The notes beneath the pieces were generated by a model that saw nothing but the letters and a program-made list of their open reading frames with translations, had not been told where the DNA came from and did not search any database. Positions 5,470 to 57,765 of a stretch of DNA of 64,000 bases are shown in pieces. Made by a program: the position numbers and the translations under genes. The first letter of the stretch is position 1; every line of letters begins with the position of its first letter. The DNA comes from Acidobacteriaceae bacterium (GTDB lineage: Bacteria > Acidobacteriota > Terriglobia > Terriglobales > Acidobacteriaceae), in the NCBI GenBank assembly GCA_003139095.1, contig PLHW01000062.1, forward strand, positions 1 through 64,000, in the 5' to 3' direction.

Positions 5470-5539
5470 GGTCGTTGGTCGTTCGTCGTTAGTCGTTGGC
5501 TCTAAGCTCTTAGCTCTCAGCGCTTAGCTCCACAGCTCT
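5470..5539. repeat. Two adjacent heptamer arrays (GTCGTTN and AGCTCTT units)
   Basis: 5470-5499 is four units of GTCGTT plus one variable base (G, C, A, G). From 5504 it switches to five imperfect units of AGCTCTT (to about 5539). The two arrays use unrelated heptamers but have the same unit length. They sit directly after a terminator and before the 3' end of the convergent sulfotransferase gene. The GTCGTT array recurs near 20058, 20282 and 21440. Confidence 0.85.
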
Positions 5540-5551
5540 AATCATCGTGGT

Positions 5552-6421
5552 TTAAGGTTTGGTTTCCTGGTGGGCTAGGGGTTCGGTGGTGGGGGTGGAG
5601 GAAGCTAGTTGATAGCCGAGCTGGATCATTACGTGGCCCCAGGCGGCTTCGATTTGGGCTACGGATTCGGGAGGGAGGACGGCTTTCCATCCGCCGGAGG
5701 AGGCTTTGCGGACGAAGGGCTTGTCCTGGCGCGTGAAGCGGGTTTGAACCCACTTGTCGCCCTGCTTCTCCTCTAATTTGCGCATGCGGTCGGCGGAGCT
5801 GAGGTCGGCGGCGCGCTGGCAGCGCTCGGGACTGGGATCGATGCCTAGGAGATTGGCGACCTTGACGAGTTCGCGGGCCGGGTTTTCGATCATGTCTTCG
5901 TAGCGGAGGACCAGGAAGCCGGGACGGCCGCTGCGGGTGCTCATCCAACTGGTGACGTGGTCGCCCCAATTGCCGAGGCGATCCCAGATCTTTCCTTCGA
6001 TCCAAGCGGGAAGGAAATCCTGAATGGGGAGTTGATCGCTGAACGACCGCTGTTTCATTTCCCAGTGAAAATTGGAGACGGCGCAGTCGCGCGGGTCGCG
6101 CACGATGTAGATGACGCGCTTGTAGCGCGGGTCGAAGACCTCATGACTTTTGAGAATGCGCGGGCGGGGGAGATGGCGGAGGTAACGGTCACCGTGCTTG
6201 TACATGTCGGCGACGAGGCGCTCGACGTTGAGGAAGGTGACGGCCTCCTCGGTGTGGACGAGATTGCCGACGAGGAAGCGGGTCCAGGTGTTGCCGGAGC
6301 GAGGGTAAGAGGTGAGGAAGACGTCGTCGGGGAAGATGGTGATGTCGCGCTCGATGCGGAGGGTGCGGAAGAGGACGTCGTGGACGCGGGTGAGATGTTT
6401 GATGCCTCGCTTGATGAGCAT
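5552..6421 (-). CDS. Sulfotransferase (PAPS-dependent, Sulfotransfer_1-like)
   Basis: The 289-residue protein carries the 5'-phosphosulfate loop SYPRSGNTW near residue 40 and the 3'-phosphate motif IYIVRDPRDCAVS near 115. Later come RYEDMIENP and the Arg/Gly-containing segment before the C-terminus, as in cytosolic-type sulfotransferases. It would transfer sulfate from PAPS to a hydroxyl acceptor, here probably a polysaccharide or lipid. The ATG at 6421 was chosen because AGGAG lies 5 nt upstream; the frame runs back to 6640 inside the upstream gene. It follows the FemAB-like gene by 29 nt, so the two form an operon. Confidence 0.88.
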   Translation of the reverse strand: MLIKRGIKHLTRVHDVLFRTLRIERDITIFPDDVFLTSYPRSGNTWTRFLVGNLVHTEEAVTFLNVERLVADMYKHGDRYLRHLPRPRILKSHEVFDPRYKRVIYIVRDPRDCAVSNFHWEMKQRSFSDQLPIQDFLPAWIEGKIWDRLGNWGDHVTSWMSTRSGRPGFLVLRYEDMIENPARELVKVANLLGIDPSPERCQRAADLSSADRMRKLEEKQGDKWVQTRFTRQDKPFVRKASSGGWKAVLPPESVAQIEAAWGHVMIQLGYQLASSTPTTEPLAHQETKP

Positions 6422-6450
6422 GAAAACTCCTAACTCGGATGCGCCGGTGG

Positions 6451-7476
6451 TCACTCGGCGGCGTCGGGGCGCTGGTTGCGCTCGCCCTGGAGCCAGCCTA
6501 AAAACTTTTGTTTGCGCGCGAACATATTGCGGGCCTCGTTGCGGAGGGCGCCGATAATCTGATAGCGCGACTTGGTGAACCAGGGCACGCGGTGGGGGAG
6601 ACACCCGTACTTCTCTTTGTATGTGCCCTCGCCACCCCAATCATAAATGGAGGCGCCACGGCGCTTCCAGTAACGGAGGGCATACCAGTGGCATGCCTCG
6701 TTGGGGCGAAGGCCCTGATGGGCGCGGAAGCTGGCGTTGCCCCAGAATTCGGCGATGTGGTTGAAGCCGGGATAAATGCCGGTGGCGATGCAGCGGCCTT
6801 CGGGATCGCGGGCGCGGACGAGTAGGACGTTGCCGCTGGGCTCGAGGTGCTTGACGAGAGAGCGGACGCGCTCAACGGAGTAGGTGGGAACGAGTCCCTG
6901 CTTGGCGAAGACGTCTTTGAGCTGCTCGTAATATTCGTCGGCGAAGGCAAGGTCGTGGGCCTCTTCGATGACGACGCCGCTTTTTTCGGCCTTGCGGACG
7001 CAGCGGCGGCAGGCGCTTTCCATGCCGTTGAAAAGCTCGTCTTCGGACTTGGTGAGGTCGGTGCGATAGGAGCCATAGTGCTCGGCGGTGAAGCCGAGGC
7101 CGTCGCCATCTTCGAAGGTGAAATGCGGGTCGGAGACCTCGAGGTGGAGGCACTTTAGGTCATCCCAGGCGAACTTTTCGAGGGCTTCGAGGGCGGCGCG
7201 GCGGGAGACGCCGGCGTGGAGATTGAAGCCGATGTAGGGGGTGGTCCATCCGGGAAAAGAGCTGCCGAGGACCTTCATGCCGAACTTGGAGAAGGTGAGT
7301 CCGGTAAAGTAGCCGACGAGGTGGGAGCCGTCGCGGAGCTCGGCGAGGACGGGGGTGGCGCCTTGGGACTCATGGATGAAGTCGAGCCAGGGGCGGGTTT
7401 GGAAGACAGTGCGGTCGTGGAAGCTGTCGAGGAGCTTCCAGTCGGCGGATTTGAAATCGATCTGGTAAAGCTTCAA
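6451..7476 (-). CDS. FemAB/BioF2-like GNAT acyltransferase
   Basis: The 341-residue protein has the two-lobed GNAT architecture of FemAB/BioF2-type proteins. Characteristic pieces are RPWLDFIHES near the N-terminus, a Cys/Arg-rich RRCVRKAEKSG segment in the middle, the strand set around CIATGIYPGFN, and a C-terminal IYDWGGEGTYKEKYG. Such proteins transfer acyl or aminoacyl groups to cell-wall or exopolysaccharide precursors. The start is a TTG with GGAG just upstream. It is the first gene of a two-gene minus-strand operon with the sulfotransferase, suggesting decoration of a surface glycan. The exact substrate cannot be read from the sequence. Confidence 0.8.
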   Translation of the reverse strand: MKLYQIDFKSADWKLLDSFHDRTVFQTRPWLDFIHESQGATPVLAELRDGSHLVGYFTGLTFSKFGMKVLGSSFPGWTTPYIGFNLHAGVSRRAALEALEKFAWDDLKCLHLEVSDPHFTFEDGDGLGFTAEHYGSYRTDLTKSEDELFNGMESACRRCVRKAEKSGVVIEEAHDLAFADEYYEQLKDVFAKQGLVPTYSVERVRSLVKHLEPSGNVLLVRARDPEGRCIATGIYPGFNHIAEFWGNASFRAHQGLRPNEACHWYALRYWKRRGASIYDWGGEGTYKEKYGCLPHRVPWFTKSRYQIIGALRNEARNMFARKQKFLGWLQGERNQRPDAAE

Positions 7477-8036
7477 AGGACTCCAGTCGTCGATGGGAGG
7501 GATACCCCCTCCAAGGCGGTTTTAAAGTCAAAGACTTAGCGGGTATTTGCGGCCAGGTCTTTGAGGAATAAGGAGTTAGAGATAAAGCCTTTATAAATCA
7601 TAGACTTCGAGTGAATAATTGCCAACTATCTCTGGTCGCTCCTGTCCTGAGTATATCGTTCAATTCTAATTGGTTCCTAAGATAATTCTGCGCGGTGAGA
7701 GGGCAATGTCAAGGGGATTCAGGAGGCGAGAGTGACGGGGGTCAGGTGGCTGGCTGGCTTATTCTCCGCGCGGCTGGGGCGGGCAATACGTGTCTGCGAT
7801 TTGGAAACGGAGAAAGCGGAATGGTCACTATCCTGATGGGAACGCGGAAGTGGACTCCACCACGAGTAGCGATTTGCCCTTGCCCGCTGCGATCGACGGT
7901 ATCGTCCCGGGCATCCCGGTAATCCGCAAAATTTTTAGTTACCCGACCATGACCTTCTACTTACCAGGTCATGATTACTTACTTACTTACTTACTTACTC
8001 GATCATGCAATGATCGCGACTATGCGGAGGTGTACT
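7477..8036. other. Gene-free divergent region with palindromes and a TTAC microsatellite
   Basis: This 560-nt gap separates the minus-strand FemAB gene from the plus-strand membrane gene. I found no supported gene. Small open frames at about 7695-7920 have no recognisable features. The half near 7560-7700 is clearly more AT-rich than its surroundings and probably holds the promoters. The 3' end contains two inverted repeats and a tetranucleotide repeat described separately. Confidence 0.6.
7948..8016. promoter_or_regulatory. Paired inverted repeats flanking a (TTAC)6 repeat upstream of a membrane gene
   Basis: CATGACCT (7948-7955) and AGGTCATG (7966-7973) are perfect 8-nt inverted arms with a 10-nt spacer. 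About six TTAC units follow at 7975-7998, then CGATCAT (8000-8006) / ATGATCG (8010-8016), a perfect 7-bp inverted repeat with a 3-nt loop. The whole block ends 20 nt before the ATG at 8037. The first palindrome looks like a dimeric operator. The tetranucleotide tract could change spacing by slippage. No regulator gene is adjacent. Confidence 0.6.
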
Positions 8037-8965: not shown

Positions 8966-9064
8966 CGCGACAGTCCTCCTGTTCCCATATCGGCGCGGTT
9001 CGAAAAGCCTGCGGCGGTAAGACCTTGGCATTGAAGGTCAAAACGTGCTAAAACCAGAGCCATT

Positions 9065-9507: not shown

Positions 9508-9590
9508 GTCGGCCCCTTTCCCTCATTCAAAACTCGGCTCGACGCAATTCGGAGGAAGGTTCCCACTTACGGGCTGCCCGGCGCGGAACA

Positions 9591-9664: not shown

Positions 9665-9684
9665 TGCACCACACAGCGCCGGGG

Positions 9685-11742: not shown

Positions 11743-11770
11743 GCGGTCTGCTTGCGTCTGGGGGTTTTCA

Positions 11771-11939
11771 ACGCGGAGGCCGCGGAGTTCGCAGAGGAGA
11801 TTTGAGGGCGTGGTCTCGCGGCATGGCCCCCAGCGGCTGGAACGGGCTGCTGAAAAAGACGACCGGCTCGTCCGAAGCGACCACCGGGGCTGAAGCCCCT
11901 GACGAATTCAAAGCGACTTACGCGGCCCTGAAGGGCCGC
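11771..11939. repeat. Nonamer array and twin GA-loop palindromes
   Basis: 11771-11800 contains three imperfect CGCGGAGGC-like nonamers. Further on, GGGGCT/AGCCCC (11886-11899) and GCGGCCCT/AGGGCCGC (11922-11939) are perfect stems, each closed by a GA loop. The two stems are about 22 nt apart. They lie between the 3' ends of convergent genes (methyltransferase and cytochrome). Without a T-run they are more likely a REP-type doublet than terminators, although either role is possible. Confidence 0.75.
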
Positions 11940-14076: not shown

Positions 14077-15087
14077 TTAGCGCTGGTCGAGGAGATGGAT
14101 GGTTTCGAGGATGGTGTTGCCTACGATTTCCAGGCTTCTGGGGCTTAGCTTGTCCATGGTGTCTTGCGCGGTGTGGTGGAAGACGTTGTTGTAGCCGTAG
14201 TCGAGGTCGATTACGTCGGCGACGGGGACGCCGCGTTTTACGAAGGGGATGTGATCGTCTTCGATGGGGCCTTGGCGGGCATAGAAGTGGGATTGATTGC
14301 CTTCTTTTTGAGCGGCGGCGTAGATGAGGTCGAGGAGCCAGGGAGTGGAGTTGGTGTCACGGTCGATGTTGAGGTCGGCGTCGCCGATCATGTCCATGAC
14401 CATGAGGGCTTTGATTTTTTTCAGGGTGCCATCTTTTTCCCATTTTTCGGCGAGATGGCGAGTGCCGTAGAGGCTGTCGGAGTCGGACCAACTTTTGACG
14501 GCTTCTTCGCCGTCGGTCCAGACGAGCCAGACGCTGTAGCCGTCGCGGGATTTGGCGCGAAGCTGGTTGGCGAATTCGAGGAGGATAGCGGTGGACGAGC
14601 CGCCGTCGTTGGCGCCGACGTAGCCGATGTTGCGGAGGGGATAGTTGGTGTCGTAGTGGCCGAGGATGGCGATGATGCCGTCGTTTTTGCCGGGGAATTT
14701 GGCGATGATGTTGTGGACGGGGAATTTGCCTTCGACGGTGTCGGCGGTGAAGTCGTCGTGCTCGATCTGGTCGCCTTTTAAGTGGTCGAGGATGTAGCGC
14801 TCGAGTTTTTTGTGGGCTTCGTTGCCCATGTAGCGGGGGCCGAAGGCGGCGACCTCGCGGGTGTATTCGAAGGCGCGCTTGGCGTCGATGTGGGGGAGCG
14901 GGGCAGAGTCGGGGGCCGGCGCGGCGGCGGCTTCGGATTTGGCGATGGCCGCGGTGGCGGCGGTTGAGGGCGTGGGCGCGGGATTCGGTTTGGTGCAGGC
15001 GGGAGTGGAGAGCACAAGCAACGCCAAAGAAAATCTTAACCACGGGGGACACAGAGGGACACGGAGGGAAGTCGCACCTAGGCGCAT
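14077..15087 (-). CDS. Glutaminyl-peptide cyclotransferase-like lipoprotein (M28 fold)
   Basis: This 336-residue protein has a lipoprotein signal (STPAC, Cys31) followed by an Ala/Pro linker. The catalytic domain matches animal-type glutaminyl cyclases better than aminopeptidases: GHYDTNY (143-149), GANDGGSSTAILLEFA with zinc ligand Asp161, TDGEEAVKSWSDSDSLYGTRHLA with Glu194/Glu195, LMVMDMIG with Asp232, and DDHIPFVKRGVPV with His279. One zinc ion rather than the two of M28 peptidases is expected. The likely reaction is conversion of N-terminal Gln to pyroglutamate on exported proteins. Its start follows the tatC stop by 3 nt, so it is co-translated with the Tat genes. Part of its signal peptide is encoded by repeat DNA (15040-15070). 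Confidence 0.87.
   Translation of the reverse strand: MRLGATSLRVPLCPPWLRFSLALLVLSTPACTKPNPAPTPSTAATAAIAKSEAAAAPAPDSAPLPHIDAKRAFEYTREVAAFGPRYMGNEAHKKLERYILDHLKGDQIEHDDFTADTVEGKFPVHNIIAKFPGKNDGIIAILGHYDTNYPLRNIGYVGANDGGSSTAILLEFANQLRAKSRDGYSVWLVWTDGEEAVKSWSDSDSLYGTRHLAEKWEKDGTLKKIKALMVMDMIGDADLNIDRDTNSTPWLLDLIYAAAQKEGNQSHFYARQGPIEDDHIPFVKRGVPVADVIDLDYGYNNVFHHTAQDTMDKLSPRSLEIVGNTILETIHLLDQR
15040..15070. repeat. GGACACNGA tandem array inside the cyclase signal-peptide region
   Basis: The plus strand reads as imperfect 9-10-nt units (GGGGACACA, GAGGGACAC, GGAGGGA). The array lies entirely within the coding sequence, encoding residues about 7-16 on the minus strand (LRVPLCPPW-like). It shows the same architecture as the intergenic arrays but here it contributes to a protein. 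Confidence 0.7.
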
Positions 15088-15090
15088 GGG

Positions 15091-15894
15091 CTACGTCCCT
15101 TTCTTTTCGGCGCGTTTTTTGCGCTGGCTGGGATGGACCATCCAGGCGATGGCGATACTTAGTATGTACAAGCCGACCATGGGGGCGGCGAAGATGCACA
15201 TGTTCACGATGTCGGGCGTGGGCGTGATGATGGCGGCGACGATGAAGATGCCGAGGATCGAATAGCGGATGTTCTTCCACATCCAGCCGGCGCTGACGAT
15301 GCCCATGAGGGCGAGGAAGAAGACGAGGATGGGCATCTCAAAGATGGCGCCCATGCCGATGATGATGGTCACAAACAGCGAGGTGTACTCCTCGATGGTG
15401 ATCATGGGCTGGAACTGCTTGCCGAAATCGATGAGGAAGCTGAGGGCCTGGGGATAGACGACGCGATAGCCGAAGTAGCCGCCGGCGAGGAAGAGTCCAA
15501 CGCTGGAGACCATGAAGGGCATGACGTAGCGCTTTTCGTGGCGATAGAGGCCGGGGGCGATGAAGAGCCAGAGCTGATAGAGAACGAAGGGCGAGCTGAC
15601 GAAAAGGCCGGCGACGCCGGCGACCTTGAGATAGAGATTGAAGGGATCGACGGGATTGAGATAGACGAGCTTTTCGGGGAGACCGTATTTGTGCAGGACC
15701 TGAATGATGGGGCGCTGCATGATGTCGACGAGACGGGAGGCGGCGAACCAGCAACCGAAGAAGCCGATGGCGACGGCGGCGACGGACCAGACGATGCGCT
15801 TGCGGAGTTCCTCGAGATGATCGAGGAAGCCCATGGTGGGCATGGCGTCTTTGGTAGAGTCGGCGAGGGGTGGAGAGATGGCCGCTTCAGGCAT
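15091..15894 (-). CDS. tatC: Sec-independent protein translocase TatC
   Basis: The 267-residue TatC has six membrane helices. The N-terminal cytoplasmic segment contains the strongly conserved FLDHLEELRKRI (residues about 23-34), which forms the twin-arginine signal-binding site with the conserved Glu in the first periplasmic/cytoplasmic loops. NPVDPF and the LYRHEKRYV loop are also typical. It forms the Tat receptor with TatB and exports folded proteins. Its first codons overlap the end of the upstream tatA/B gene by 8 nt, and the glutaminyl cyclase follows 3 nt after its stop, so the three are a translationally coupled operon. Confidence 0.97.
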   Translation of the reverse strand: MPEAAISPPLADSTKDAMPTMGFLDHLEELRKRIVWSVAAVAIGFFGCWFAASRLVDIMQRPIIQVLHKYGLPEKLVYLNPVDPFNLYLKVAGVAGLFVSSPFVLYQLWLFIAPGLYRHEKRYVMPFMVSSVGLFLAGGYFGYRVVYPQALSFLIDFGKQFQPMITIEEYTSLFVTIIIGMGAIFEMPILVFFLALMGIVSAGWMWKNIRYSILGIFIVAAIITPTPDIVNMCIFAAPMVGLYILSIAIAWMVHPSQRKKRAEKKGT

Positions 15895-16267
15895 CGGGGG
15901 CGGCCTTGGGAGCGGGAGTCGGGGCAGGCGCGATCTCAGTAGCGGAGTCGGCCGGGGGATGGGTGGCTTCGGGCGAGGCGGTTTTAGATTCGGCGGCTTC
16001 GAGTTGCTGGGGCGGCGGGGGATTGAAGATGCGGCTGGCGAGCGAGCCGAGCGGGGCCTGGAGCGAGGGGAGGATCTGGGGCTTGACGTCGGATTGGACG
16101 GCGTTGATTTCGGATTCGATCTGAGAGCGGAATTCGTTGGAGGCGCGGCGGAACTCGTTCATGAAGCGGCCGATGGTGCGGCCGATCTCCGGAAGTTTTT
16201 TGGGGCCGAAAAGGATGAGGGCGAGAAAGAACAGAAAGATCATCTCACCCGAGAAGCCGAAATTCAT
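15887..16267 (-). CDS. tatB: TatA/TatB-family translocase subunit
   Basis: The 126-residue protein has a single N-terminal helix with the hallmark FGPKKLPEIGRTIGRF at residues about 21-36, an amphipathic helix with several Arg/Glu residues, and a long Pro/Ala-rich tail. The length and the tail favour a TatB role, but bacteria with a single TatA-type protein use one subunit for both, and the family boundary cannot be drawn from the sequence alone. The overlap with tatC indicates stoichiometric expression. A GATCGGGCC-type octamer array (16314-16352) lies upstream. Confidence 0.9.
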   Translation of the reverse strand: MNFGFSGEMIFLFFLALILFGPKKLPEIGRTIGRFMNEFRRASNEFRSQIESEINAVQSDVKPQILPSLQAPLGSLASRIFNPPPPQQLEAAESKTASPEATHPPADSATEIAPAPTPAPKAAPDA

Positions 16268-16313: not shown

Positions 16314-16352
16314 GCATCGGGCCATCGGATCATCTGGCCATCGGGCCATCTA
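16314..16352. repeat. Octamer array (ATCGGGCC units), copy E1
   Basis: Five imperfect units of CATCGGGC/CATCTGGC occupy the gap between tatB and the first outer-membrane barrel gene. The same unit recurs at 17892-17920 and 39474-39520. Confidence 0.85.
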
Positions 16353-16371: not shown

Positions 16372-16965
16372 CTATCGGAACGTGTAGCCAATGGATGCGC
16401 CGTAGCGGAGGGCGTGGAAGGAACTGAATTCGATGTTGTTGCGGACGATGTAGTAGCGAGCCTCGGGGCGAATGAAAAGATGACGCCAGGCGTAGTACTT
16501 GATGCCGCCGCCGACGTCGCCCATGAGGTGATTGGAGGTTCCATAGCAACTGCTGCCATTGCAGCCCTGCACATAAAAACGAGTGGTCTGGACGCCGGCG
16601 CCGCCGAGGACTTCGAAAGCGAGGTGGTGGGGCAGGATCTGAGAGGCGTAGATGGCGTTGAAATCGTAAAAGAAGGGGCGATAGGGAAGGTTGATGTATC
16701 CGGGGAGGTAGGTGCCGTTGTTCCAGCGCCAGGCGAGTTCGGCCTGCACGCCGATGCGTTTGTGGAAGAGCCAGTCGGCGCTGGCAGTGGGATAAGCGCC
16801 GCCGTCGAGGGATTGAGGCTCATGGTTGCCGGTGGCGAGACTGCCTGCGGGCGCGTAGATAGAAGCGCCGCCGACGGCAACGTCAATTTGCTGGGCGCGA
16901 GCGGTGGGGGCGAAGGCGAGGGCGAGAATGGCGAGAATAAGGGCGAGGCGCGGGAAGCTGTTCAA
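16372..16965 (-). CDS. Outer-membrane beta-barrel protein, copy 1
   Basis: From the TTG at 16965 the protein is 197 residues with a compact signal peptide (MNSFPRLALILAILALAFA..., cleavage after ARA) and an eight-strand-like barrel pattern of alternating aromatic strands, ending GYTFR with a terminal aromatic-x motif recognised by the BAM machinery. Two Cys residues (CNGSSC) sit in one loop and could form a disulphide. The open frame extends to 17043 through A/T-rich repeat-like DNA, so the start is uncertain; the chosen one matches the length of the paralogue at 17189. Function may be as a structural OmpA-like barrel or small porin; not determinable here. Confidence 0.75.
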   Translation of the reverse strand: MNSFPRLALILAILALAFAPTARAQQIDVAVGGASIYAPAGSLATGNHEPQSLDGGAYPTASADWLFHKRIGVQAELAWRWNNGTYLPGYINLPYRPFFYDFNAIYASQILPHHLAFEVLGGAGVQTTRFYVQGCNGSSCYGTSNHLMGDVGGGIKYYAWRHLFIRPEARYYIVRNNIEFSSFHALRYGASIGYTFR

Positions 16966-17891: not shown

Positions 17892-17920
17892 TGATCGGGT
17901 GATCGGGCCATCGGGCCATT
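17892..17920. repeat. Octamer array (ATCGGGCC units), copy E2
   Basis: Three to four units (GATCGGGT GATCGGGC CATCGGGC CATT) lie 10 nt past the stop of the glycerate kinase gene and upstream of the second barrel gene. Confidence 0.85.
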
Positions 17921-17930
17921 TAAGCCCGCC

Positions 17931-19298
17931 CTAATAGGCTAGGAGGAGGCGGAGGTCGCGAAGGTTGTTGCCGGTGGGGCCGGTGACGATGTCATCGCCG
18001 AGGCGCTTGAACAAAGGATGGGCGTCGAAGCGGGACAGGGCTTCGCGGACGGCGTCGAGTCCGCCCGCGCGGACGACTGTGGTTCCATCGACGAGGGCTC
18101 CGGCGGCGGGGCTGTTGCCGTCGATGCCGTCGGTGCCGGCGCTGAGGATGGTGAGGTTGTCGCCGGCAATTTTCTCGGCGCAGGCTAGGGCGAATTGCTG
18201 GTTGCGTCCGCCGGTGCCGCCGTGGCGGACGGTGACGGTGACTTCGCCGCCGGAGAGGAGGCAGATGGGCTTCGGTTCGTCGGGAAGAGCGGCGGACGGA
18301 TTTTCGTTTCGCTGGCGGGCGCGGAGATCGCGGAGGCGATTGACTAAGTAGGCGGCGGCTTTTTCGTAGTCCCAGTCGTCGCAGGAGTTGTCGATTACGA
18401 CTTCGAAGCCGGCAGCGGCAGCGGCTTTGGCGGCCTCGTCGAGGGCAATCTGATTGGAGAGGACGGTCCACCAGCGGGCGCGGACGAAGGCGGGATCGTC
18501 GGACTTGGGGGTTTCTTCGAGGGCGCGCTCGCGGAAGAGATCGGCGACGGAAGGCGGGAACTGTTCGAGGAGCCCATACTTCGCGACTATGCTCTCGCAG
18601 TCGTGGATGGTGGTGGAGTCGGGCATGGTGGGACCGGAGGCGAGCGCGTCGGGCGTGGCGTCGGGCACGTCGGAGACGAGGATGGAAACCTGCTGCGCGG
18701 GATAGGCGGCCTGGGCGAGGCGGCCTCCTTTGACGGCGGAGAGATGCTTGCGGATGGCGTTGATTTCGGCGATGGGCGCGCCGGAGTGGACGAGCTTTTG
18801 ATAGGTGGAGATGAGGTCGGGGAGAGAAATTTCGTCGTCGAGTGGCTTTTCGACGAGGGAGGAGCCTCCGCCGGAGAGCAGAAAGATGACGAGCGAGGAG
18901 GCGTCGAGCGAGCGCAGCGATTTGAGAATGGCGTGGGCGGCGTGAATGGATTCGGCGTTGGGAGTGGGATGGCCGGCGTGAAAATAACGGAAGCCGTGAA
19001 GCTGGGCAGCGGGCGCGACGGAGGAGGCAACGATGCCTTCGAGGTGCGGGCCCGTGCGGGCTTCGAGGGCGGCGGCCATGGTGTGGGCGGCTTTGCCGAT
19101 GGAGACGACGAAGGTGCGGCTGTAGGAGTTGAGATGGTAGAGGTCGTCGCAAATGCGGAGAACGCCGCGGTGGCAATGGATGTGGCGGGAGAAGGCGCTC
19201 TCAATGGAGGCGTTTTGGAGCGCGGACGTGAAGATGACGCGGGCGGCAGGGCGCATGCGGCGGAATTGGAGGGCGGGGTCGGGGGCGGGGTCCGGCAT
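17931..19298 (-). CDS. Glycerate 2-kinase (GckA/TtuD, MOFRL family)
   Basis: The 455-residue protein has the two-domain structure of glycerate 2-kinases: an N-terminal DUF4147 domain with VVSIGKAA near residue 65, LLSGGGSSLVEKP near 145, and the Lys-containing INAIRKHLSAVKGGRLA; then a C-terminal MOFRL domain with CLLSGGEVTVTV, GGRNQQFALA and SAGTDGIDGNSPAAGA. It phosphorylates D-glycerate to 2-phosphoglycerate, feeding glyoxylate- or hydroxypyruvate-derived carbon into glycolysis. The ATG at 19298 is used; upstream in-frame codons are translated repeat (NYKSQITNYKS). No glycerate dehydrogenase or transporter is next to it. Confidence 0.93.
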   Translation of the reverse strand: MPDPAPDPALQFRRMRPAARVIFTSALQNASIESAFSRHIHCHRGVLRICDDLYHLNSYSRTFVVSIGKAAHTMAAALEARTGPHLEGIVASSVAPAAQLHGFRYFHAGHPTPNAESIHAAHAILKSLRSLDASSLVIFLLSGGGSSLVEKPLDDEISLPDLISTYQKLVHSGAPIAEINAIRKHLSAVKGGRLAQAAYPAQQVSILVSDVPDATPDALASGPTMPDSTTIHDCESIVAKYGLLEQFPPSVADLFRERALEETPKSDDPAFVRARWWTVLSNQIALDEAAKAAAAAGFEVVIDNSCDDWDYEKAAAYLVNRLRDLRARQRNENPSAALPDEPKPICLLSGGEVTVTVRHGGTGGRNQQFALACAEKIAGDNLTILSAGTDGIDGNSPAAGALVDGTTVVRAGGLDAVREALSRFDAHPLFKRLGDDIVTGPTGNNLRDLRLLLAY

Positions 19299-19318: not shown

Positions 19319-19406
19319 ATTTGTAATTTGTAATTTGTGATTTGTAATTTAAAAACTCACTCTGCCTGCCGCACAATTACAAATTACAAATTGCCGATTA
19401 CAAATT
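19319..19406. repeat. Heptamer inverted element (ATTTGTA units), copy B1
   Basis: The left arm 19319-19350 is about four ATTTGTA heptamers. The right arm 19375-19406 is the reverse complement with a few differences, separated by a 24-nt spacer. The right arm includes the last codons and TAA stop of the hydrolase gene (19398-19400). The element bridges from that stop almost to the start of the glycerate kinase. A second copy is at 57653-57765. Confidence 0.87.
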
Positions 19407-20057
19407 CTTCACCCAGGCTTCGATGGCGGTGCGCATTTCTTTCAGGCGGCCTTCGAAGAAATGGTCGCCGGCTTCGATGCGGACCAGTTTTTTTGGGTCG
19501 GCGAAAGTGGCGACTAACGCTTCGAGCGATCCGGGCGGGGCGAACTGGTCTCTTGATCCGCTGACGAAGAGCTTGGGCTTCACGCTGGTGCGGAGGAATT
19601 CGAAATTGTAGGTGCGGGCCTCGCCGGCGGTGCTGGGCACGGGGATGGCGGGCAGGCCGAGGGCGATGAGCGTATCGACGCGATCGTCGTTGTGGGCGGC
19701 GCGGAGGCCGACTGCGGCTCCGAAAGAAAAACCGGCAAAGACGACGGGAAGCGGGAATTCGCGCTCAAGCCAATCGAGTGCGGTGCGGGCGTCGTCGAGT
19801 TCGCCGACGCCGTGGGCGTGCTCGCCTTGGCTGAGGCCGGCGCCGCGAAAGTTGAAGCGGAGGACGGGGAATCCGAAGCCGTTGAGCGCCTTCATGGCGT
19901 GGAAGACGACTTTGTTGTGAAGGGTGCCTCCGAAGAGCGGATGGGGATGGCAGACGAGGGCGGCATGCGTGGCGGCGGGCGAGCCGGCGTTGAGGAGGGC
20001 TTCGAGGCGTCCGGCGGGGCCGGGGAGGAAGAGGGAGCGGATGGTGGAGTCGGTCAC
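19398..20057 (-). CDS. Alpha/beta hydrolase of the COG2945 family
   Basis: The protein is about 219 residues. It has the family hallmark CHPHPLFGGTLHNKVVFHAM near residue 37, the oxyanion region LRFNFRGAGLSQG, the nucleophile elbow GFSFG, the Asp in SGSRDQFAP and the His in EAGDHFFEG. A serine hydrolase acting on a small or hydrophobic acyl substrate is expected; the specific substrate is unknown. I chose the GTG at 20057 because everything further upstream in the frame is repeat-derived. No good ribosome site is visible. It is followed by the glycerate kinase across a heptamer hairpin element. Confidence 0.85.
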   Translation of the reverse strand: MTDSTIRSLFLPGPAGRLEALLNAGSPAATHAALVCHPHPLFGGTLHNKVVFHAMKALNGFGFPVLRFNFRGAGLSQGEHAHGVGELDDARTALDWLEREFPLPVVFAGFSFGAAVGLRAAHNDDRVDTLIALGLPAIPVPSTAGEARTYNFEFLRTSVKPKLFVSGSRDQFAPPGSLEALVATFADPKKLVRIEAGDHFFEGRLKEMRTAIEAWVKNL

Positions 20058-20413
20058 TTGGTCGTTAGTCTTTCGTCGTTCGCTATTCGATCTTGCTTTG
20101 CGCTCTTGAAATTCTATCAGCCTCCTTTCGGGACTCGTTCGCGGCTGGCGGCGCGCAATACTTTCGATCTCCAGGGCAGTGGGGAATGCAGGGATCCTTC
20201 GTCGCCGACATCTGGGCGCGTGTGCTCGGGGCGGTGATGCGGGCTCCTCAGGATGACAAGCTTTCTTGGGGTTGTAAGACAATTGACGGCTAACGACCAA
20301 TGACCGGCGACTAACGGCGAACGACCGGCGAGAGACCCGACGATTCGACGACACACCCGACGGCTGACGACACGAGTGGCGATTGATTGCTGGCGGCTGA
20401 TACGCTCTTGTGC
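20058..20413. repeat. Gene-free divergent region: GTCGTT arrays flanking REP-like copy D
   Basis: This 356-nt gap between the hydrolase and the M20 peptidase is almost entirely repeats. 20060-20090 has GTCGTT-type heptamers, 20187-20260 is REP-like copy D (GGGATCCTTCG ... CTCCTCAGGATGACA), and 20282-20375 has the reverse-complement heptamers (ACGACCA, ACGACCG, TAACGGC and variants). The heptamer arrays are thus inverted around the REP-like copy. Promoters of both genes must lie within or overlap these repeats. Confidence 0.8.
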
Positions 20414-21427
20414 ATGAGCATGAGCGATCTGTTCGCGCTGGCGCGGCGGTTGATCGACATTGAATCCATAACTCCGAATGAGGGGGCGGTGGGGGAGTTT
20501 GTTTGCTCGGAACTTCTGCGGCGGGGATTTGCGGCTCGGAAGATGGCGGTGGAAGGCGAGCGGGCGAATGTGATGGCGACGTGGCCGGGACATGCGCGGC
20601 CGGAGGTTGTTTTTTCTACGCACATGGATACGGTGCCGCCGTTTATTCCATCGTCGGAGGATGAAGCGCGGATTTACGGGCGGGGGGCGTGCGACGCGAA
20701 GGGAATTATTGCGGCGCAGATTGTGGCGGCTGAAAAGCTGCGCGGGGCGGGCGTTTTCGTGGGGCTGCTGTTTCTGGTGGGCGAGGAGACGAATTCGATT
20801 GGGGCGCTGACGGCGAATCAGCATCCGATTGGGGCGCGCTACATGGTGAATGGCGAGCCGACGGAGAACCGGCTGGCGGTGGCGAGCAAAGGGGCGCTGC
20901 ATGTGGAGCTGGCGGCGCGAGGGAAGATGGCGCATTCGGCGTATCCGGAGCTGGGCGAATCGGCGATTGACAAACTGGTGGAGGCGCTGCACCGGTTGCA
21001 CGCGATGAAGTTGCCGGAGGTGGCGGACGTGGGGGCGTGCACGAAGAATGTGGGGATTATTGAGGGCGGACGGGCGCGAAATGTGATCCCGGACCGGGCG
21101 CGGGCGGAACTTTTTTACCGGCTGGTGGGGCCGGCGTCGGAGTTGAAGGCGCGGATCGTGGAGGCGGTGGGCGATCTGGCGGAGGTGGAGTTTACGCGGG
21201 AGACGCCATTTATGCGGATGCACACGCTGGAGGGAATGCCGACGATGGTGGCGGCGTTTACGACGGATGTACCTTCGCTGACGAATTGGGGCAAGCCGCT
21301 GCTGGCGGGGCCGGGATCGATTCACGCGGCGCATACCGAGGGCGAGTTTGTGGAGAAGCGGCAACTGGAGGAGGCGGTGGAGTTGTATTGCGGGATTGCG
21401 GGAACTTTGCTGGGGAAGGGCGCGTAG
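20414..21427 (+). CDS. M20-family metallopeptidase (ArgE/DapE/LysK-like deacylase)
   Basis: This 337-residue protein has the M20 di-metal set: STHMDTVPPF (His and Asp with the catalytic Asp two residues on), GRGACDAKG (bridging Asp), GEETN (catalytic Glu and metal Glu), NGEPTEN, and IHAAHTEGE with the last metal His. The dimerisation lid domain lies around residues 165-270. It is shorter than DapE and close in size to LysK/ArgE deacylases, hydrolysing an N-acyl amino acid. It is not linked to arginine or lysine synthesis genes, so the substrate remains open. The ATG at 20414 or the one six bases on is the start. Confidence 0.9.
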   Translation: MSMSDLFALARRLIDIESITPNEGAVGEFVCSELLRRGFAARKMAVEGERANVMATWPGHARPEVVFSTHMDTVPPFIPSSEDEARIYGRGACDAKGIIAAQIVAAEKLRGAGVFVGLLFLVGEETNSIGALTANQHPIGARYMVNGEPTENRLAVASKGALHVELAARGKMAHSAYPELGESAIDKLVEALHRLHAMKLPEVADVGACTKNVGIIEGGRARNVIPDRARAELFYRLVGPASELKARIVEAVGDLAEVEFTRETPFMRMHTLEGMPTMVAAFTTDVPSLTNWGKPLLAGPGSIHAAHTEGEFVEKRQLEEAVELYCGIAGTLLGKGA

Positions 21428-21839
21428 AGGATAGGGCGGGTGGTCGTTGGTCGTTCGTCGTTGGTCGTTCGTCGTTCGCGCTGTGCTGCTTGACCACTAT
21501 GTTCAGGGCGCGGGGGAACGCCTTGCGACGGCGGTGTGCGCGGGGTAGGGGTCCTTCGACTGCGCGCAATCATCGCTGCGCGATGAGTGTGCTCCGCTCA
21601 GGATGACAACTAGTGAGACGGCAAAACGTCAGGGCGACTGGGATGACAATTTGTCTAACGGTGCATTTGTTGGGATCAAAATGTTGTGCAGGAATCGTGC
21701 GACGACAGATGCGTGCGAGGAAATAGATTTACAATGGCTCGCTTGGGGAAAACAGAAATCCGGCGGGATAGATGCGACTGGTCAAATTCAAGGTCTGGCA
21801 GGCTCAACGAATAATCCGACAGGTTTGGGAGATCACTCA
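21428..21839. repeat. Gene-free stretch: GTCGTT heptamers and REP-like copy E
   Basis: The 412-nt gap contains a GTCGTT array at about 21440-21480 (alternating GGTCGTT and CGTCGTT) and REP-like copy E at 21547-21610, whose hairpin is nearly the same as copy A. The final 220 nt hold no repeat. An open frame runs through it from 21603 but its sequence has no protein-like features; it probably contains the promoter and leader of the LolA-like gene. Confidence 0.75.
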
Positions 21840-36461: not shown

Positions 36462-37652
36462 TTATAACACCAGCGACCAGTTCAGGAACGCCCAAAGCCA
36501 GCCCAGATTGCAGGCGAACAGCCCCATGCACAGGAAGATGAAGCGGGCGCGGCTCATCTTATTAGCCCATCGCCCGAATGTAAGATATGCAGGATAAATA
36601 GGCAATAAGTATCGTGGCGCGCCGAAGAGCGGTGGTGAGCACACTCTTAGTAAGAGATGAAGGATGACGGCCAGGGAAAAACAGCGGTCTTCCATTCGCC
36701 GACGCGCCAGCACTCCCGCAATGAAGAAGAGGATCAGCGCTGCGAAGCTGATGGCGAGCAAAGGCTGGAAGCGATGGAACAGGGCAAGAATGGCTTGCCA
36801 AAGCGTTGTCCAAGGCGCCGCGACTTGGGTGTCCCAGTAAAGGCGATAAGCAGAAGCGATGCGCGGTCGTCCGGTTTCCCGAAGCCACAGCCAATACGCG
36901 AGCGTGCCGAGCGGCGCGAGGAAGACTGACCATCGCGCAATGTTGGAAGGGGGCCGGCGCGCGGGAGATTCAGGACGCGGCGGAGTCCGCGAGACAGCAC
37001 GCGACGAAACTCGCAACCAAGCGCCGAATGCAATGACCAGCAGCGGGACAATTAGCAATGTTCCCGCCGATCGCGTAAGGCCTGCGGCGAGCGCGCAAAA
37101 GGCGGCCGAGAGCCAGTTTTCATCGCGGGCCTGCGCGATGGACCAGACGATCAGCGCCATGGCCAACGCTTCCGTGTAGGCGGCGAAGAGGAAGAAACTT
37201 GCGGGCCAAACCGCAGCCAAAGCCAGCACTCGCAACGGCAGAACATCTGGGGCCTCGCGGCGCGCGAGGCGCAGCAATCCCAGGAAGTAGAAAAAGGACG
37301 CGATGGTTGAGACGAGCAGCGCCGCGGCCACAGGTTCGACTAAGTAACTCACGAACCGAATCAGCGCGGGATATAGAGGGTAGAAGACGACCGATGCGGG
37401 AAGATCATATCCGCGCGCGGCGATGCGCAGATACCAGAGTGTGTCGAAGCGCCCCCAGATGCCGAGGAGCGCATAATGCAAGCCGGAAGAAGAGGGCAAG
37501 GTTTGGGCGAAGGCGTTGCTGCGGACGAGACTCGCCTGCGGATGCTGCGCGATGGCCGCGAACGCCGCAAACGTGGAATAGAAGACGCGCAGCAGGAGCG
37601 TGATCGCCAGCGCGATCTGCCAATCCGGGCGCAAGTGAAGTCTGCGGAGCAC
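36462..37652 (-). CDS. PIG-V-like mannosyltransferase, multi-pass GT-C membrane enzyme
   Basis: The 396-residue protein has about nine hydrophobic helices. The first luminal/periplasmic loop has WGRFDTLWYLRIAARGYD, with the acidic residue pattern of GT-C enzymes, followed by VFYPLYPALIRF and PASFFLFAAYTEALA. This is the signature of bacterial PIG-V homologues, which transfer mannose from a lipid-linked donor. The GTG at 37652 is the apparent start without a clear ribosome site. It is divergent from the carboxylase gene and convergent with the short crotonase. Its acceptor is not known. Confidence 0.83.
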   Translation of the reverse strand: MLRRLHLRPDWQIALAITLLLRVFYSTFAAFAAIAQHPQASLVRSNAFAQTLPSSSGLHYALLGIWGRFDTLWYLRIAARGYDLPASVVFYPLYPALIRFVSYLVEPVAAALLVSTIASFFYFLGLLRLARREAPDVLPLRVLALAAVWPASFFLFAAYTEALAMALIVWSIAQARDENWLSAAFCALAAGLTRSAGTLLIVPLLVIAFGAWLRVSSRAVSRTPPRPESPARRPPSNIARWSVFLAPLGTLAYWLWLRETGRPRIASAYRLYWDTQVAAPWTTLWQAILALFHRFQPLLAISFAALILFFIAGVLARRRMEDRCFSLAVILHLLLRVCSPPLFGAPRYLLPIYPAYLTFGRWANKMSRARFIFLCMGLFACNLGWLWAFLNWSLVL

Positions 37653-37775
37653 GGGGTCGAACGACTCGAAGGAACTCCGCAGGCGAGTCTACCAGCAGCG
37701 AACATGCTGGCGAGCGTGTTGGCGAAGATGGCCGCGAAGTCGCACCGGGCGCCCGCTGATATATTAAAAGAGCGT

Positions 37776-39476
37776 ATGTCAGAACGCTCCGAATCCACAG
37801 CTATCGCTATCAATAACGTGATCGCCAGCAAGATCGATCCCGCGTCGCTCCGCTTTGAATCGAACATGCGCGCGCTCGCCGATCTGGTGGCGCAGGTGCG
37901 CAATGAAGAGGAGAAGATTCGCGAGGGCGGAGGCGCGAAGGCCATCGAGAACCAGCATGCGAAAAACCGCCTGACGGCGCGGGAGCGCATCAAGCTGCTC
38001 GCCGACCAGGGCACATTCTTCGAGCTTGGACTTTATGCCGCGCACGGCATGTATGAAGAATGGGGCGGAGCACCGGCGGCGGGCGTGATCACGGGACTGG
38101 CGCGAATCCAGAGCCGGCTGGTGATGCTGATCGTGAATGACGCGACGGTGAAGGCGGGAGCGTTCTTTCCGATGACGGCGAAGAAGGTGATTCGCGCGCA
38201 AAACATGGCGATCGAGAATCGGATTCCGACGATTTATCTGGTGGATTCGGCGGGCGTTTTTTTGCCGTTGCAGGAAGATGTGTTTCCCGACACGGACGAT
38301 TTTGGGCGCGTCTTCCGGAACAACGCGGTGATGTCGGCGATGGGCATTCCGCAGATCGCGGCGATTATGGGCATGTGCGTGGCGGGCGGCGGATATTTGC
38401 CGGTGATGTGCGACCACGTGCTGATGACGGACGGGAGCGGACTTTTTCTGGCGGGGCCGGCGTTGGTGCAAGCCGCGATCGGGCAGAAGGTTTCGGCGGA
38501 GGATTTAGGCGGGGCGGCGATGCACTCGGCGATCAGCGGGACGGTGGATTTCCACGAGCCGAACGATGAAGCGTGCATTGCGCGCATACGGTCGCTGGTG
38601 GAAAAGTGGGGATACCGGCGGCAGTCGCTATGGGACCGCAAAAAGCCCGCCGATCCGGCGCTTTCGGCGGAAGAGATTTATGGCGTGTACGACGCTTCGC
38701 CGGCGCGGCCGTACGATATGCGGGAGATTCTGGCGCGCACTGTGGACGAAAGCCGGTTTGACGAATATAAGCCGGAGTATGGCAAGACGCTCTTGTGCGG
38801 ATATGCGCGCATTGGCGGCTTTGCAGTGGGCATCGTCGCGAACCAGAAACTGCATGCGCACCAGACCGATCACGAGGGGCACAAGCGGGTGGAGTTTGGC
38901 GGGGTGATCTATACCGAGTCGGCGGAGAAGGCGGCGCGCTTCATCATGGATTGCAATCAAGCGCTGGTGCCGCTGGTTTTTTTCCACGATGTAAACGGGT
39001 TCATGGTGGGACGGGACGCGGAGTGGAGCGGGATCATCAAGGCGGGCGCGAAGATGGTGAACGCGGTGTCGAATTCTGTGGTGCCGAAAATTGCGGTGAT
39101 TGTGGGCGGGTCGTTTGGCGCGGGACATTACGCGATGTGCGGCAAGGCGTTCGATCCGCGATTTGTGTTTGCCTGGCCAACGGCGCGATATGCGGTGATG
39201 AGCGGAGACTCGGCGGCCGGGACGCTGGTGGAAATCAAGATCAAGCAACTGGAGCGCAGCGGGAAGAAGCTGAGCGAAGAAGAACGGAAAGAGCTGTTCG
39301 AGTCAACGAAGAAAACCTACGAGGAGCAGACGGACCCGCGGTACGGAGCGGCGCGGTTGTGGATCGACAGGATCATCGATCCGATGGAGACGCGGCAGGC
39401 GATCACGCAGGCGTTGGAGGCGGCCGCGCTGAACCCGGAGGTGGCGGAGTTTAAAGTTGGAGTCTTACAAACATGA
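37776..39476 (+). CDS. Acyl-CoA carboxylase beta subunit (methylcrotonoyl-CoA carboxylase-like)
   Basis: The 566-residue carboxyltransferase has both crotonase-like halves. The N-terminal half has VYxxDSAGVFLPLQEDVFPDTDDFGRVF and MCVAGGGYLPVMCDHVLM; then LGGAAMHSAISGTVDF; the C-terminal half has VGGSFGAGHYAMCGKAFDP and the RxxxxIDRIIDPMETR ending. The 'FPD-x-DxFGRxFxNxAxMSAxGIPQIA' pattern is that of methylcrotonoyl-CoA carboxylase rather than propionyl-CoA carboxylase. The biotin carboxylase alpha subunit is absent from the window. Followed by HMG-CoA lyase-like and hydratase genes, it fits leucine degradation. The ATG at 37776 was chosen; the frame upstream is antisense to the mannosyltransferase. 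Confidence 0.92.
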   Translation: MSERSESTAIAINNVIASKIDPASLRFESNMRALADLVAQVRNEEEKIREGGGAKAIENQHAKNRLTARERIKLLADQGTFFELGLYAAHGMYEEWGGAPAAGVITGLARIQSRLVMLIVNDATVKAGAFFPMTAKKVIRAQNMAIENRIPTIYLVDSAGVFLPLQEDVFPDTDDFGRVFRNNAVMSAMGIPQIAAIMGMCVAGGGYLPVMCDHVLMTDGSGLFLAGPALVQAAIGQKVSAEDLGGAAMHSAISGTVDFHEPNDEACIARIRSLVEKWGYRRQSLWDRKKPADPALSAEEIYGVYDASPARPYDMREILARTVDESRFDEYKPEYGKTLLCGYARIGGFAVGIVANQKLHAHQTDHEGHKRVEFGGVIYTESAEKAARFIMDCNQALVPLVFFHDVNGFMVGRDAEWSGIIKAGAKMVNAVSNSVVPKIAVIVGGSFGAGHYAMCGKAFDPRFVFAWPTARYAVMSGDSAAGTLVEIKIKQLERSGKKLSEEERKELFESTKKTYEEQTDPRYGAARLWIDRIIDPMETRQAITQALEAAALNPEVAEFKVGVLQT

Positions 39477-39520
39477 TCGGGCGATCGGGCCATCTGGCGA
39501 TCGGGACATCGGGTCATTGG
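39474..39520. repeat. Octamer array (GATCGGGC units), copy E3
   Basis: Five to six units (GATCGGGC GATCGGGC CATCTGGC GATCGGGA CATCGGGT CATTGG). The first T-G-A of the array is the stop codon of the carboxylase gene (39474-39476). It separates the carboxylase and HMG-CoA lyase-like genes. Confidence 0.88.
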
Positions 39521-54904: not shown

Positions 54905-54918
54905 GGGGTTCGGCCGGG

Positions 54919-55638: not shown

Positions 55639-55811
55639 TGTGGCTTGCCTCCGTCACAAGCTTACCTTTGTTCTGAATCGACTTCCACCGCTTTTCATAG
55701 CATGTTGGTTGTCTGGCACGTTGTCCAGCCCGCCGAACGGCTAGGGGCGCCTCCCTATGCGAACTGGTCACGGCAATTCAATTTGGTAAATTGAGCCGAG
55801 GAGCATTCGCG

Positions 55812-56159: not shown

Positions 56160-56223
56160 CAGCAGTGTTCCTGGAAATTGATCGCTGGCGAGGGCCAGAG
56201 TTTGGGCCGAGGTTGTTACACTA

Positions 56224-57183: not shown

Positions 57184-57188
57184 ATTGC

Positions 57189-57240
57189 AAATTCCTCGCT
57201 TGTTCCCGCCTTCGGCTGCGGACGGTTCGGAATGACAAGT
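57189..57240. repeat. REP-like element, copy H
   Basis: ATTCCTCGCTTGTTCCCGCCTTCGG ... GGTTCGGAATGACA: the ATTCC/GGAAT variant of the element with a small interior, lying inside the meaB-epimerase gap. Confidence 0.7.
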
Positions 57241-57255
57241 CGTATGGGGGTCTTC

Positions 57256-57660
57256 ATGGGATTTCAAATCGATCATCTGGGCATCGCGGTAAAGTCGCTG
57301 GCGGCGGCGAAATCGATCTATGAAACGTTGGGCTTGTCGATTTCGCCGGAGGAGACCGTCGCGCAAGAAAAAGTCCGGCTGGTGATGGTGCCCGTTGGCG
57401 AGAGCCGGCTGGAATTGCTGGAGGCGACGGCGGACGATTCGGCAATTGCTAGGTTTATTGCCAAGCGCGGAGAGGGCTTGCACCACGTTTGCATGCGTGT
57501 TCCGGATCTTGCGGCGGCGGTTGCCCGGCTGAAACGGGATGGCGTGCGCCTCGTCTCGGAGGAAATCAAGACCGGGGCGGGCGGACACCGATACGTTTTT
57601 GTGCATCCGCAGAGCGCGGGCGGCGTTCTGCTGGAGTTGGTGGACGGCGCGCATTTGTAA
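57256..57660 (+). CDS. mce: Methylmalonyl-CoA epimerase
   Basis: The 134-residue protein from ATG 57256 (GGGGGT upstream; alternatives at 57232 and 57244) is a two-module VOC enzyme. DHLGIAVKSLAAAKSIYETLG supplies the first metal His, RLELLEATADDSAIARFI the middle, GEGLHHVCMRVPD the second His, and GVLLELVDG the final Glu. It converts (S)- to (R)-methylmalonyl-CoA for the mutase. Following meaB, it completes the methylmalonyl-CoA pathway set in this window. Its stop codon lies within the heptamer element B2. Confidence 0.93.
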   Translation: MGFQIDHLGIAVKSLAAAKSIYETLGLSISPEETVAQEKVRLVMVPVGESRLELLEATADDSAIARFIAKRGEGLHHVCMRVPDLAAAVARLKRDGVRLVSEEIKTGAGGHRYVFVHPQSAGGVLLELVDGAHL

Positions 57661-57765
57661 TTTGCGATTTGCAATTTGTAATTGGTAATTTGGCAACCGC
57701 GGGCGATTGAGTAGCCACGCTTCAAATCACCAATTACAAATTACAAATTGTAAATATCGCAAATG
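57653..57765. repeat. Heptamer inverted element (ATTTGTA units), copy B2
   Basis: The left arm 57653-57690 is ATTTGTA-type heptamers beginning in the last codons and TAA stop of the epimerase. The right arm 57724-57765 is the reverse complement with few differences and ends in the ATG of tsaB. The element thus fills the whole intergenic gap from stop to start. The spacer is about 33 nt. Confidence 0.88.

Follow-up and report, generated by a model that had tools for sequence, protein, structure and literature searches.

The window analyzed in this study is a whole 64,000-nt stretch (positions 1 to 64,000 of the forward strand of contig PLHW01000062.1, Acidobacteriaceae bacterium, assembly GCA_003139095.1), which carries between its genes short imperfect tandem arrays whose units are similar in length and different in sequence. 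This locus raises the question of what makes and keeps such arrays: a process that measures the length of a unit or one that recognizes its letters. The original prediction, made from the sequence alone, held that several unrelated vocabularies of 7-9 nt share one architecture and that the responsible mechanism is tied to unit length rather than to any one sequence. Our results suggest that the arrays might be short bacterial satellites of the heptamer-repeat kind, amplified in steps of 7 or 8 nt, subject to drift and homogenization of their words, and filtered at gene borders. We assign this reading a probability of about 0.5.

The genome containing the window (5.53 Mb, 75 contigs; the window is contig C45) was sampled together with related genomes. 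The tiled sample comprised 41 stretches (864 kb, 172 kb of which intergenic), namely 31 stretches of the window's genome including the window (664 kb) and 10 of the relative G007 (200 kb). The tiled contigs (C9, C75, and C28 of the window's genome; C140 and C98 of G007) were first picked through GTCGTT matches and then tiled from base 1, so array densities in this sample may be biased upward. Other stretches were either anchored on two genes, and partly orthologous, or chosen for GTCGTT hits. Arrays were called with an ungapped detector, and ten dinucleotide shuffles served as the null. Gene calls came from a home-made script based on coding potential, so gene starts are approximate.

Period preference and polarity at gene borders

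The tiled sample contained 39 period-7 and 22 period-8 intergenic arrays, whereas the shuffles gave none at either period. The window's genome contributed 26 arrays of period 7 and 11 of period 8, with 0, 0, 1, 0, and 3 arrays at periods 5, 6, 9, 10, and 11, respectively; G007 contributed 13 and 11, with none at those other periods. This preference does not rest on GTCGTT alone, because the majority of the arrays use other words. The remaining genus stretches added 115 period-7 and 8 period-8 arrays, and a 464-kb run gave the same preference with harmonics at 14, 16, and 21 (the constant count of 1 at most periods in that run was a run of N). Outside the genus, the intergenic DNA of 20 stretches (303 kb) from one other genus of the family, from other families of the order, and from the class held arrays of other words, 9 of period 7 and 2 of period 8, as well as 2 arrays each at periods 5 and 6. 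In the coding DNA of the window's genome, periods 6 and 9 led (7 and 4 arrays, versus 2 and 1 at periods 7 and 8). Period-7 and period-8 arrays called as coding elsewhere (2 and 4 in G007; 12 and 1 in the anchored or chosen stretches) were excluded from the counts and may be due to gene-calling error. These results uphold the proposed length class as a strong preference for 7-8 nt; units of 9 nt, which had been given equal rank, form a looser and rarer family. Arrays no commoner than in shuffled DNA, without a period preference, or absent from relatives had been named beforehand as arguing against the architecture; we found an excess over shuffled DNA, a sharp period preference, and arrays in relatives.

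One long part of the tiled sample was free of arrays. Positions 1-220000 of contig C28 (L028, L273-L282) had lower GC (0.549-0.573 per 20 kb), a mostly lower coding score, and no array of 7 or 8 nt in 220 kb, and arrays reappeared at about 264.9 kb. This stretch is perhaps a large island or a misassembly; if it is an island, its lack of arrays and their presence further on suggest that arrays build up with residence time.

Arrays were concentrated at gene borders. A total of 103 of 175 arrays lay within 8 nt of coding sequence (38 ± 5 expected from random placement within their own gaps), and the same measure gave 36 of 56 in the tiled set (10.1 expected). In addition, over all stretches, the A-rich strand read into the nearest gene at a ratio of 60:7 for arrays no more than 30 nt from a start and of 63:16 for those equally close to a stop. 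At starts the ratio was 19:1 in tiled, 17:4 in anchored, and 24:2 in GTCGTT-chosen stretches, and the polarity rule is firm there; at stops, where it was 19:9, 12:5, and 32:2, respectively, the rule is suggestive. A general base skew of gene borders was rejected as the cause, since array-free borders were A-rich into the gene in only 43-44%. Shine-Dalgarno (SD)-like motifs were found at 6 of 43 array-fronted ATG starts and at 222 of 586 others (p=0.0015); the array thus occupies the position where a ribosome site would lie, irrespective of whether it also takes over the function.

The same polarity was observed between neighboring arrays. Among 43 neighbor pairs less than 200 nt apart, 34 ran from a T-rich to an A-rich arm, none in reverse, 5 were A-rich in both arms, and 4 were T-rich in both. 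Nine of the 34 had been pre-chosen as convergent and eight came from gene-anchored, partly orthologous stretches; the tiled set alone gave 7 T-rich/A-rich pairs, 0 reverse, 2 T-rich in both arms, and 4 A-rich in both. Close opposite-strand pairs of single words, counted by eye in rows less than 300 nt apart, also pointed in one direction: 9 of 9 for GTCGTT, 7 of 7 for AACTGA, and 15 of 15 for ATCNGG (ATCNGGNN), each among the matches listed, and 4 of 4 for CTCTGYG. The polarity is not merely a matter of A/T content, because the fixed letters of ATCNGGNN have no A/T skew and CTCTGYG has its A-rich strand at the left; A+C versus G+T predicted polarity about equally well overall.

The arms of one pair shared a word (mean score 41.9, versus 14.9 for other loci), and a true partner beat same-word arms elsewhere with a frequency of 0.65 for ATTTG and 0.88 for CAGYT. 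The corresponding value of 0.46 for GTCG, together with the lack of any Rfam match in the window, led us to reject a hairpin selected as an exact structure. Dispersal of whole pairs was rejected as well, since the 30 loops compared were unrelated between loci except for three high scores, two from orthologous gaps and the third from a pair with another repeat in common. Arms that share a word, yet for the commonest word not its variants, and loops that are unrelated therefore make the pairs unlike copied units or finely selected hairpins. As a separate observation, locus L297 (G003:C281:25001-40025) is a co-directed gene run with array pairs in several consecutive gaps and several words adjacent.

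Array words and their replacement at orthologous gaps

The arrays and degenerate units of the window are as follows.

989..1027, + strand: period-8 array CAAGGTTT/CAAAGTTT, T-rich left arm of an inverted pair, located upstream of a gene with a STAS domain (251-940, -; approximate start)
1045..1099, + strand: period-8 array AACTTTGA/AACCTTGA, right arm paired with 989..1027, located where a Ser/Thr kinase-TPR gene (1093-3924, +; approximate start) is predicted to begin
5468..5497, + strand: period-7 array GTCGTTN
5499..5541, + strand: period-7 array AGCTCTN, 1 nt past the GTCGTTN array
11772..11799, - strand: degenerate 9-nt units CTCTGCGAA/CTCCGCGGC, read on the - strand
15041..15069, - strand: degenerate 9-10-nt units CTCCGTGTC/CTCTGTGTC, read on the - strand, one family with the 11772 units
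16315..16350, + strand: period-8 array of ATCGGGCC type; the distance is 21 nt to the stop of gene 16372-16965 (-) and 47 nt to the start of a TatA/B-like gene (15887-16267, -)
17892..17919, + strand: period-8 array ATCGGGYS; gene 17931-19298 (-) has its stop 11 nt away
19319..19350, + strand: period-7 array ATTTGTA, forming the left arm of an inverted pair, with a TATAAT between the array and the start of gene 17931-19298 (-, DUF4147/MOFRL)
19375..19406, + strand: period-7 array AATTACA, right arm, entering the stop of an alpha/beta-hydrolase gene (19398-20057, -)
20060..20089, + strand: degenerate GTCGTTN units adjoining the hydrolase start, in a gap where clear arrays are present in 10 of 15 relatives
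20286..20373, + strand: degenerate AACGACN/GACGAC units upstream of an M20 peptidase gene (20420-21427, +)
21441..21478, + strand: period-7 (also 14) array GTCGTTG/GTCGTTC, 13 nt past the M20 peptidase stop
39475..39520, + strand: period-8 array ATCGGGNN/ATCTGGCG, overlapping a carboxyl-transferase gene (37503-39476, +) at its stop
57653..57690, + strand: period-7 array ATTTGTA/ATTTGCA/ATTGGTA, left arm, including the stop codon of a glyoxalase-fold gene (57244-57660, +)
57725..57755, + strand: period-7 array CAATTAC/CAAATTA, right arm; a TsaD-family gene (57763-58473, +), which we read as TsaB-like, starts 7 nt beyond it

The Pfam names of genes near arrays also include HMGL-like. The arrays first reported were confirmed by Tandem Repeats Finder and direct reading at 989-1101, 5468-5541, 16315-16350, 17892-17919, 19319-19406, 21441-21478, 39475-39520, and 57653-57755, as were the differences of one or two bases per unit, the inverted pairs, and the abutment on genes. 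Those reported at 20060 and 20282 are real and degenerate, falling below the array threshold, and the second was scored as 11-, 20-, and 21-nt units. The 9-nt units noted at 11771 and 15040 are present and both fit a looser family, CYCYGYGNN.

Other repeats of the window are distinct from these arrays. A perfect (TTAC)6 tetranucleotide run lies between genes at 7975-7999. A separate dispersed element, CCTTCG...CTCAGGATGACA, occurs at about 165-228, 20170-20262, and 21540-21608, sometimes next to arrays; six TCAGGATGAC/GTCATCCTGA copies in the window belong to it, and sequence resembling the element is also found in orthologous gaps of G011 and G023.

The words of the window are widespread in the genus (24 genomes; counts include overlapping matches). 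Three units of GTCGTTN gave 449 matches in 22 of 24 genomes, with none for the controls; outside the genus, 2 matches were found in 1 of 17 genomes, among which the controls matched 7 times. Three units of AACTGAN, with T among the variants at the last base, gave 346 matches in 21 genomes (control 1), and the ATCNGGNN octamer 241 in 16 genomes (control 0). The nonamer CTCTGYGNN (CTCTGYGNNCTCTGYGNNCTCTG), the strict form of CYCYGYGNN, gave 61 matches in 14 genomes (reversed control 1), and 13 of 20 members of this 9-mer family read into the nearest gene, indicating no clear rule.

A total of 184 intergenic 7/8-nt arrays yielded 68 consensus words, including 50 distinct heptamers. In a network of single-base steps, one component held 46 of the 50 genus heptamers, whereas letter-shuffled sets joined on average 0.22 and at most 0.51 of their words, and such steps were visible inside a single array (AGTCGAT, AGTGGAT, and AGTGAAT in L231). 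The vocabularies are therefore not unrelated, as had been claimed, and since the heptamers are linked and have a preferred direction, sequence matters beside length. One universal skeleton for all words was rejected, because its advantage (log likelihood -301.1 versus -347.6 before near-identical words were removed) was weak afterwards (z=2.8 in the genus, z=0.8 in 80 loci from many phyla). At L113 (Nitratifractor, 4211-4546), six heptamer blocks with differing words lie within 340 nt, a mosaic in which words may be in the process of changing.

Orthologous gaps from as many as 17 relatives were compared with those of the window. An array was present in 21 of the 124 gap observations with a length of 40 nt or more, and these were spread over 4 of 16 gaps: w17|w18 (5 of 10 relatives), w18|w19 (10 of 15), w46|w47 (5 of 14), and w50|w51 (1 of 2). 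The other 12 gaps had no array in the relatives. For the gaps that hold arrays 989, 5468, 16315, 21441, and 39475, there were too few orthologous pairs for a comparison. Gap sharing exceeded random placement (65 versus 22.7 ± 6.9, maximum 51 of 5000).

In gap w17|w18, the word was ATTTGTA in the window's genome, GTCGTTN in four relatives (G002, G007, G008, and G017), GTTGTTC/GTCGTTC in G003, AGTGGTT in G023, and of AAAGTTTC type in G011 (by eye); no array was detected there in the remaining relatives compared. The arrays of this gap follow the stop codon and precede a TATAAT-like box, which is directly before the next ATG. Across species, w18|w19 carried GTCGCTN, GTCGTTN, ACTATCC, GTGGCCA, and CAGTTNT. 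Gap w46|w47 retained ATTTGTA, and some species without it (G006 and G019) have 9-mer units there (by eye). The sisters G007 and G017, with 86-87% DNA identity in aligned parts, had an identical right arm and left arms differing by about one unit at w46|w47; at w18|w19 their left-arm words differed, with ACTATCC clear in G007 and degenerate in G017. Therefore, the expected change of vocabulary with a persisting array is seen at w17|w18 and w18|w19; it is not seen at w46|w47, which keeps its word, or at w16|w17, whose array lacks a counterpart. In G001 (L225) and G010 (L220), a GC-rich repeat, GAGGGCGCCCACCCGAC...GCCGGCGAGGCGCCGGCGCTACG, occupies the array position in w17|w18.

Proposed unit turnover and competing explanations

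Identity between units decayed with distance, being 0.842, 0.805, 0.778, and 0.754 at lags 1-4 (57 arrays of at least 5 units), versus flat values near 0.80 for shuffled units. This decay, the sister differences of one unit or of words, and the word change at orthologous sites therefore point to local 7/8-nt turnover with homogenization. In the reading that we favor, a local process would add or remove units in steps of 7 nt (often 8, rarely 9) in intergenic DNA, most simply by replication slippage with template exchange between inverted arms. The same turnover would spread point mutations among units, so that a site keeps its array and its word drifts. Selection at gene borders would then filter the survivors, with arrays ending at coding sequence and the A/C-rich strand kept reading into the gene at starts. 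This reading builds on the observed period, placement at borders, polarity of pairs and of start-side arrays, word network, word replacement at two gaps, and identity decay; slippage, arm exchange, and selection as the orientation filter are inferred. A process tied to length, as first proposed, fits the persistence of arrays with changing words; it does not cover the linkage and direction of these words.

Several results weigh against this reading. Slippage alone yields neither shared words at dozens of loci, nor a fixed polarity, nor a sharp optimum at 7-8 nt. Detection favors lag-1 identity and inflates part of the decay, and the variable seventh base of GTCGTTN was identical between neighbors in 57 of 150 cases (0.38, with 0.34 expected). 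GTCG arms showed no match beyond their vocabulary, and the polarity at stops was non-significant in tiled (19:9, p=0.087) and anchored (12:5, p=0.14) stretches. Moreover, shared gaps partly reflect shared descent, and the window's own array at 17892 (gap w16|w17) had no counterpart in 13 relatives.

Searches for RVT_1, Ku, and Y1_Tnp revealed no repeat-making protein; the distribution of these three does not follow the arrays, and they were rejected as the generator. RVT_1 had no match in the window's genome. In the array-rich G007 and G017, which are 99% and 92% complete, Ku was not found; it was present in G019 and G022, both without the GTCGTT pattern. Y1_Tnp matched 22 of 24 genus genomes, with no match in the array-bearing G008 and G004, which are only 83% and 71% complete.

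The arrays could instead be functional leader or promoter elements, that is, A/C-rich repeats selected upstream of starts and read by the ribosome, an S1-like or cold-shock protein, or a heptad-binding DNA protein. This possibility, which we consider unlikely, would account for the A-rich orientation into the gene of 35 of 37 arrays within 10 nt of starts, for the ratio of 19:1 in tiled stretches, and for the scarcity of SD-like motifs, a combination also described for TAACTGA repeats in one Beggiatoaceae genome (accessible part of PMC4679880). However, about half of all arrays are nearest a stop, convergent gaps included, and the w17|w18 array, being upstream of a TATAAT-like box near the ATG, is probably outside the leader. 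Word and presence turn over among species, and the loss of SD motifs may be mere displacement. Selection of words for lack of structure was unconvincing (mean rank 0.446 ± 0.039 against letter permutations) and was rejected.

A filter at the transcript level appears improbable. Here, the G/T-rich strand reading out of genes would slow or terminate transcripts on either strand, and the pair hairpins would isolate neighbors. The absence of reverse pairs beside 34 T-rich/A-rich ones is in line with this, as are the G-rich ATCNGGNN octamers with their convergent close pairs (15 of 15 among the matches listed). However, co-directed genes flank 30 of the 34 pairs, a setting in which termination would often be harmful, the A-rich 3' arm is opposite to that of an intrinsic terminator, and neither the GTCG arms, without base-level match beyond the word, nor Rfam lends support to such hairpins.

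Mobile elements of the REPIN or MITE (miniature inverted-repeat transposable element) kind, with arrays as ends moved by a Y1 (RAYT-type) transposase, are very improbable: they would explain the preferred polarity, the dispersal, and the frequency of Y1_Tnp, yet the loops of different loci are unrelated, two incomplete array-bearing genomes lack a Y1_Tnp match, and words change in place at a site. Healing of broken 3' ends by G/T-rich words and their rejoining into head-to-head arrays like fused telomeres would fit the pair polarity and the G/T-rich strand facing the gap, but is hardly credible given the distribution of RVT_1 and Ku and the w17|w18 gap of 78 nt with an array in G017 versus 30 nt in G020, an excess of about one array that looks like an insertion.

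Satellite turnover with a border filter remains our preferred reading. Array polarity was also compared beyond the genus. A four-unit GTCGTT bait also matched Cyanobacteria, Omnitrophota, Bacteroidales, Gallionella, Chloroflexi, and others, and 80 loci, including Acidobacteria, were analyzed from at least 120 stretches, among the matches listed. Their non-bait arrays were mostly of period 7 (94 of 134), and among these 80 loci the closest match of the proteins of the window's genome was a Terriglobia record (73.6% over 957 aa). The 44 neighbor pairs of the 80 loci comprised 15 T-rich/A-rich, 7 reverse, and 22 other, so that polarity beyond the genus is a tendency only. It is quite doubtful that one rule, by which the G/T-rich strand points from gene to gap on both sides whatever the word, holds across phyla: the 15 versus 7 pairs, the Microcystis sample in the accessible part of PMC4679880, and the weak stop polarity in tiled stretches speak against it, and no statement of such a rule was found in the accessible parts of PMC4679880 and PMC4692102. 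If true, one direction-sensitive process (fixed-step 3'-end extension or a transcript-direction filter) would make or keep arrays in Acidobacteria, Xanthomonas, Beggiatoaceae, and others, and words would drift within a fixed polarity frame, resembling head-to-head fused telomeres. A general polarity would also limit any mechanism, because undirected slippage does not predict it.

Relation to known heptamer repeats

The STRR (short tandemly repeated repetitive) heptamers of heterocystous cyanobacteria comprise several degenerate heptamer families between genes. The arrays described here share these features in a host lineage that is not heterocystous cyanobacteria. The STRR family, first named as the nearest analogue, is one analogue, and the TAACTGA and GGGAATC heptamers are those actually compared.

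According to the accessible parts of MacGregor 2015 (PMC4679880), TAACTGA direct repeats occur in marine Beggiatoaceae, Cyanobacteria, and Bacteroidetes; in one Beggiatoaceae genome 132+15 of 170 sets point toward the start codon, and SD motifs are rare at the regions they front. A Microcystis sample of 24 sets had no such orientation preference, and indels between two Cyanothece strains were mostly in 7-nt increments, which counts for slippage-type turnover. Like these repeats, the arrays of the genus are intergenic heptamers with SD motifs rarer at array-fronted starts, and AACTGAN is one of their many words. Unlike them, with one favored word and a single inverted repeat, the genus has many linked words of 7 and 8 nt, common inverted pairs, and stop-side arrays; orientation toward starts is strong here, yet about as many arrays are nearest stops.

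In Xanthomonas and Nostoc, the GGGAATC and GGGGA(C/T)T heptamers are likewise degenerate and intergenic, with 70 and 75 close pairs in convergent orientation in two genomes, and lie nearer to the 5' neighboring ORF (28 versus 160 nt), as given in the accessible part of PMC4692102. From these distances, the G-rich strand would read out of the gene, as here. In contrast to that single G-quadruplex-forming word, few heptamers with G-tracts were found in the genus, and its common G3 word, the ATCGGG octamer, is the only one rich in G-tracts. The signature of REPIN/RAYT systems, dispersed palindromes that share sequence and accompany a RAYT, was not seen, given unrelated loops and two incomplete array-bearing genomes without a Y1_Tnp match.

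For long simple sequence repeats with 5-11-nt units, heptanucleotides are commonest in most genomes, and slippage with a 7-nt polymerase contact has been proposed (Mrazek 2007, as described in the accessible part of PMC4679880). The present arrays are likewise tandem runs of such units beyond chance (imperfect runs, by our own score) with a predominant unit length of 7; they differ in being imperfect and oriented.

A literature search in which most subscription journals were not covered found no report of such arrays in Acidobacteria. In the accessible parts of PMC4679880 and PMC4692102, the known heptamer arrays are centered on one or two words in few lineages. Here, a single genus has many linked words, word replacement at orthologous gaps, and a preferred polarity. 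With 24 related genomes, it can be traced at orthologous gaps how words drift, how units are gained or lost, and how arrays are oriented, which makes the question of why the unit is seven testable.

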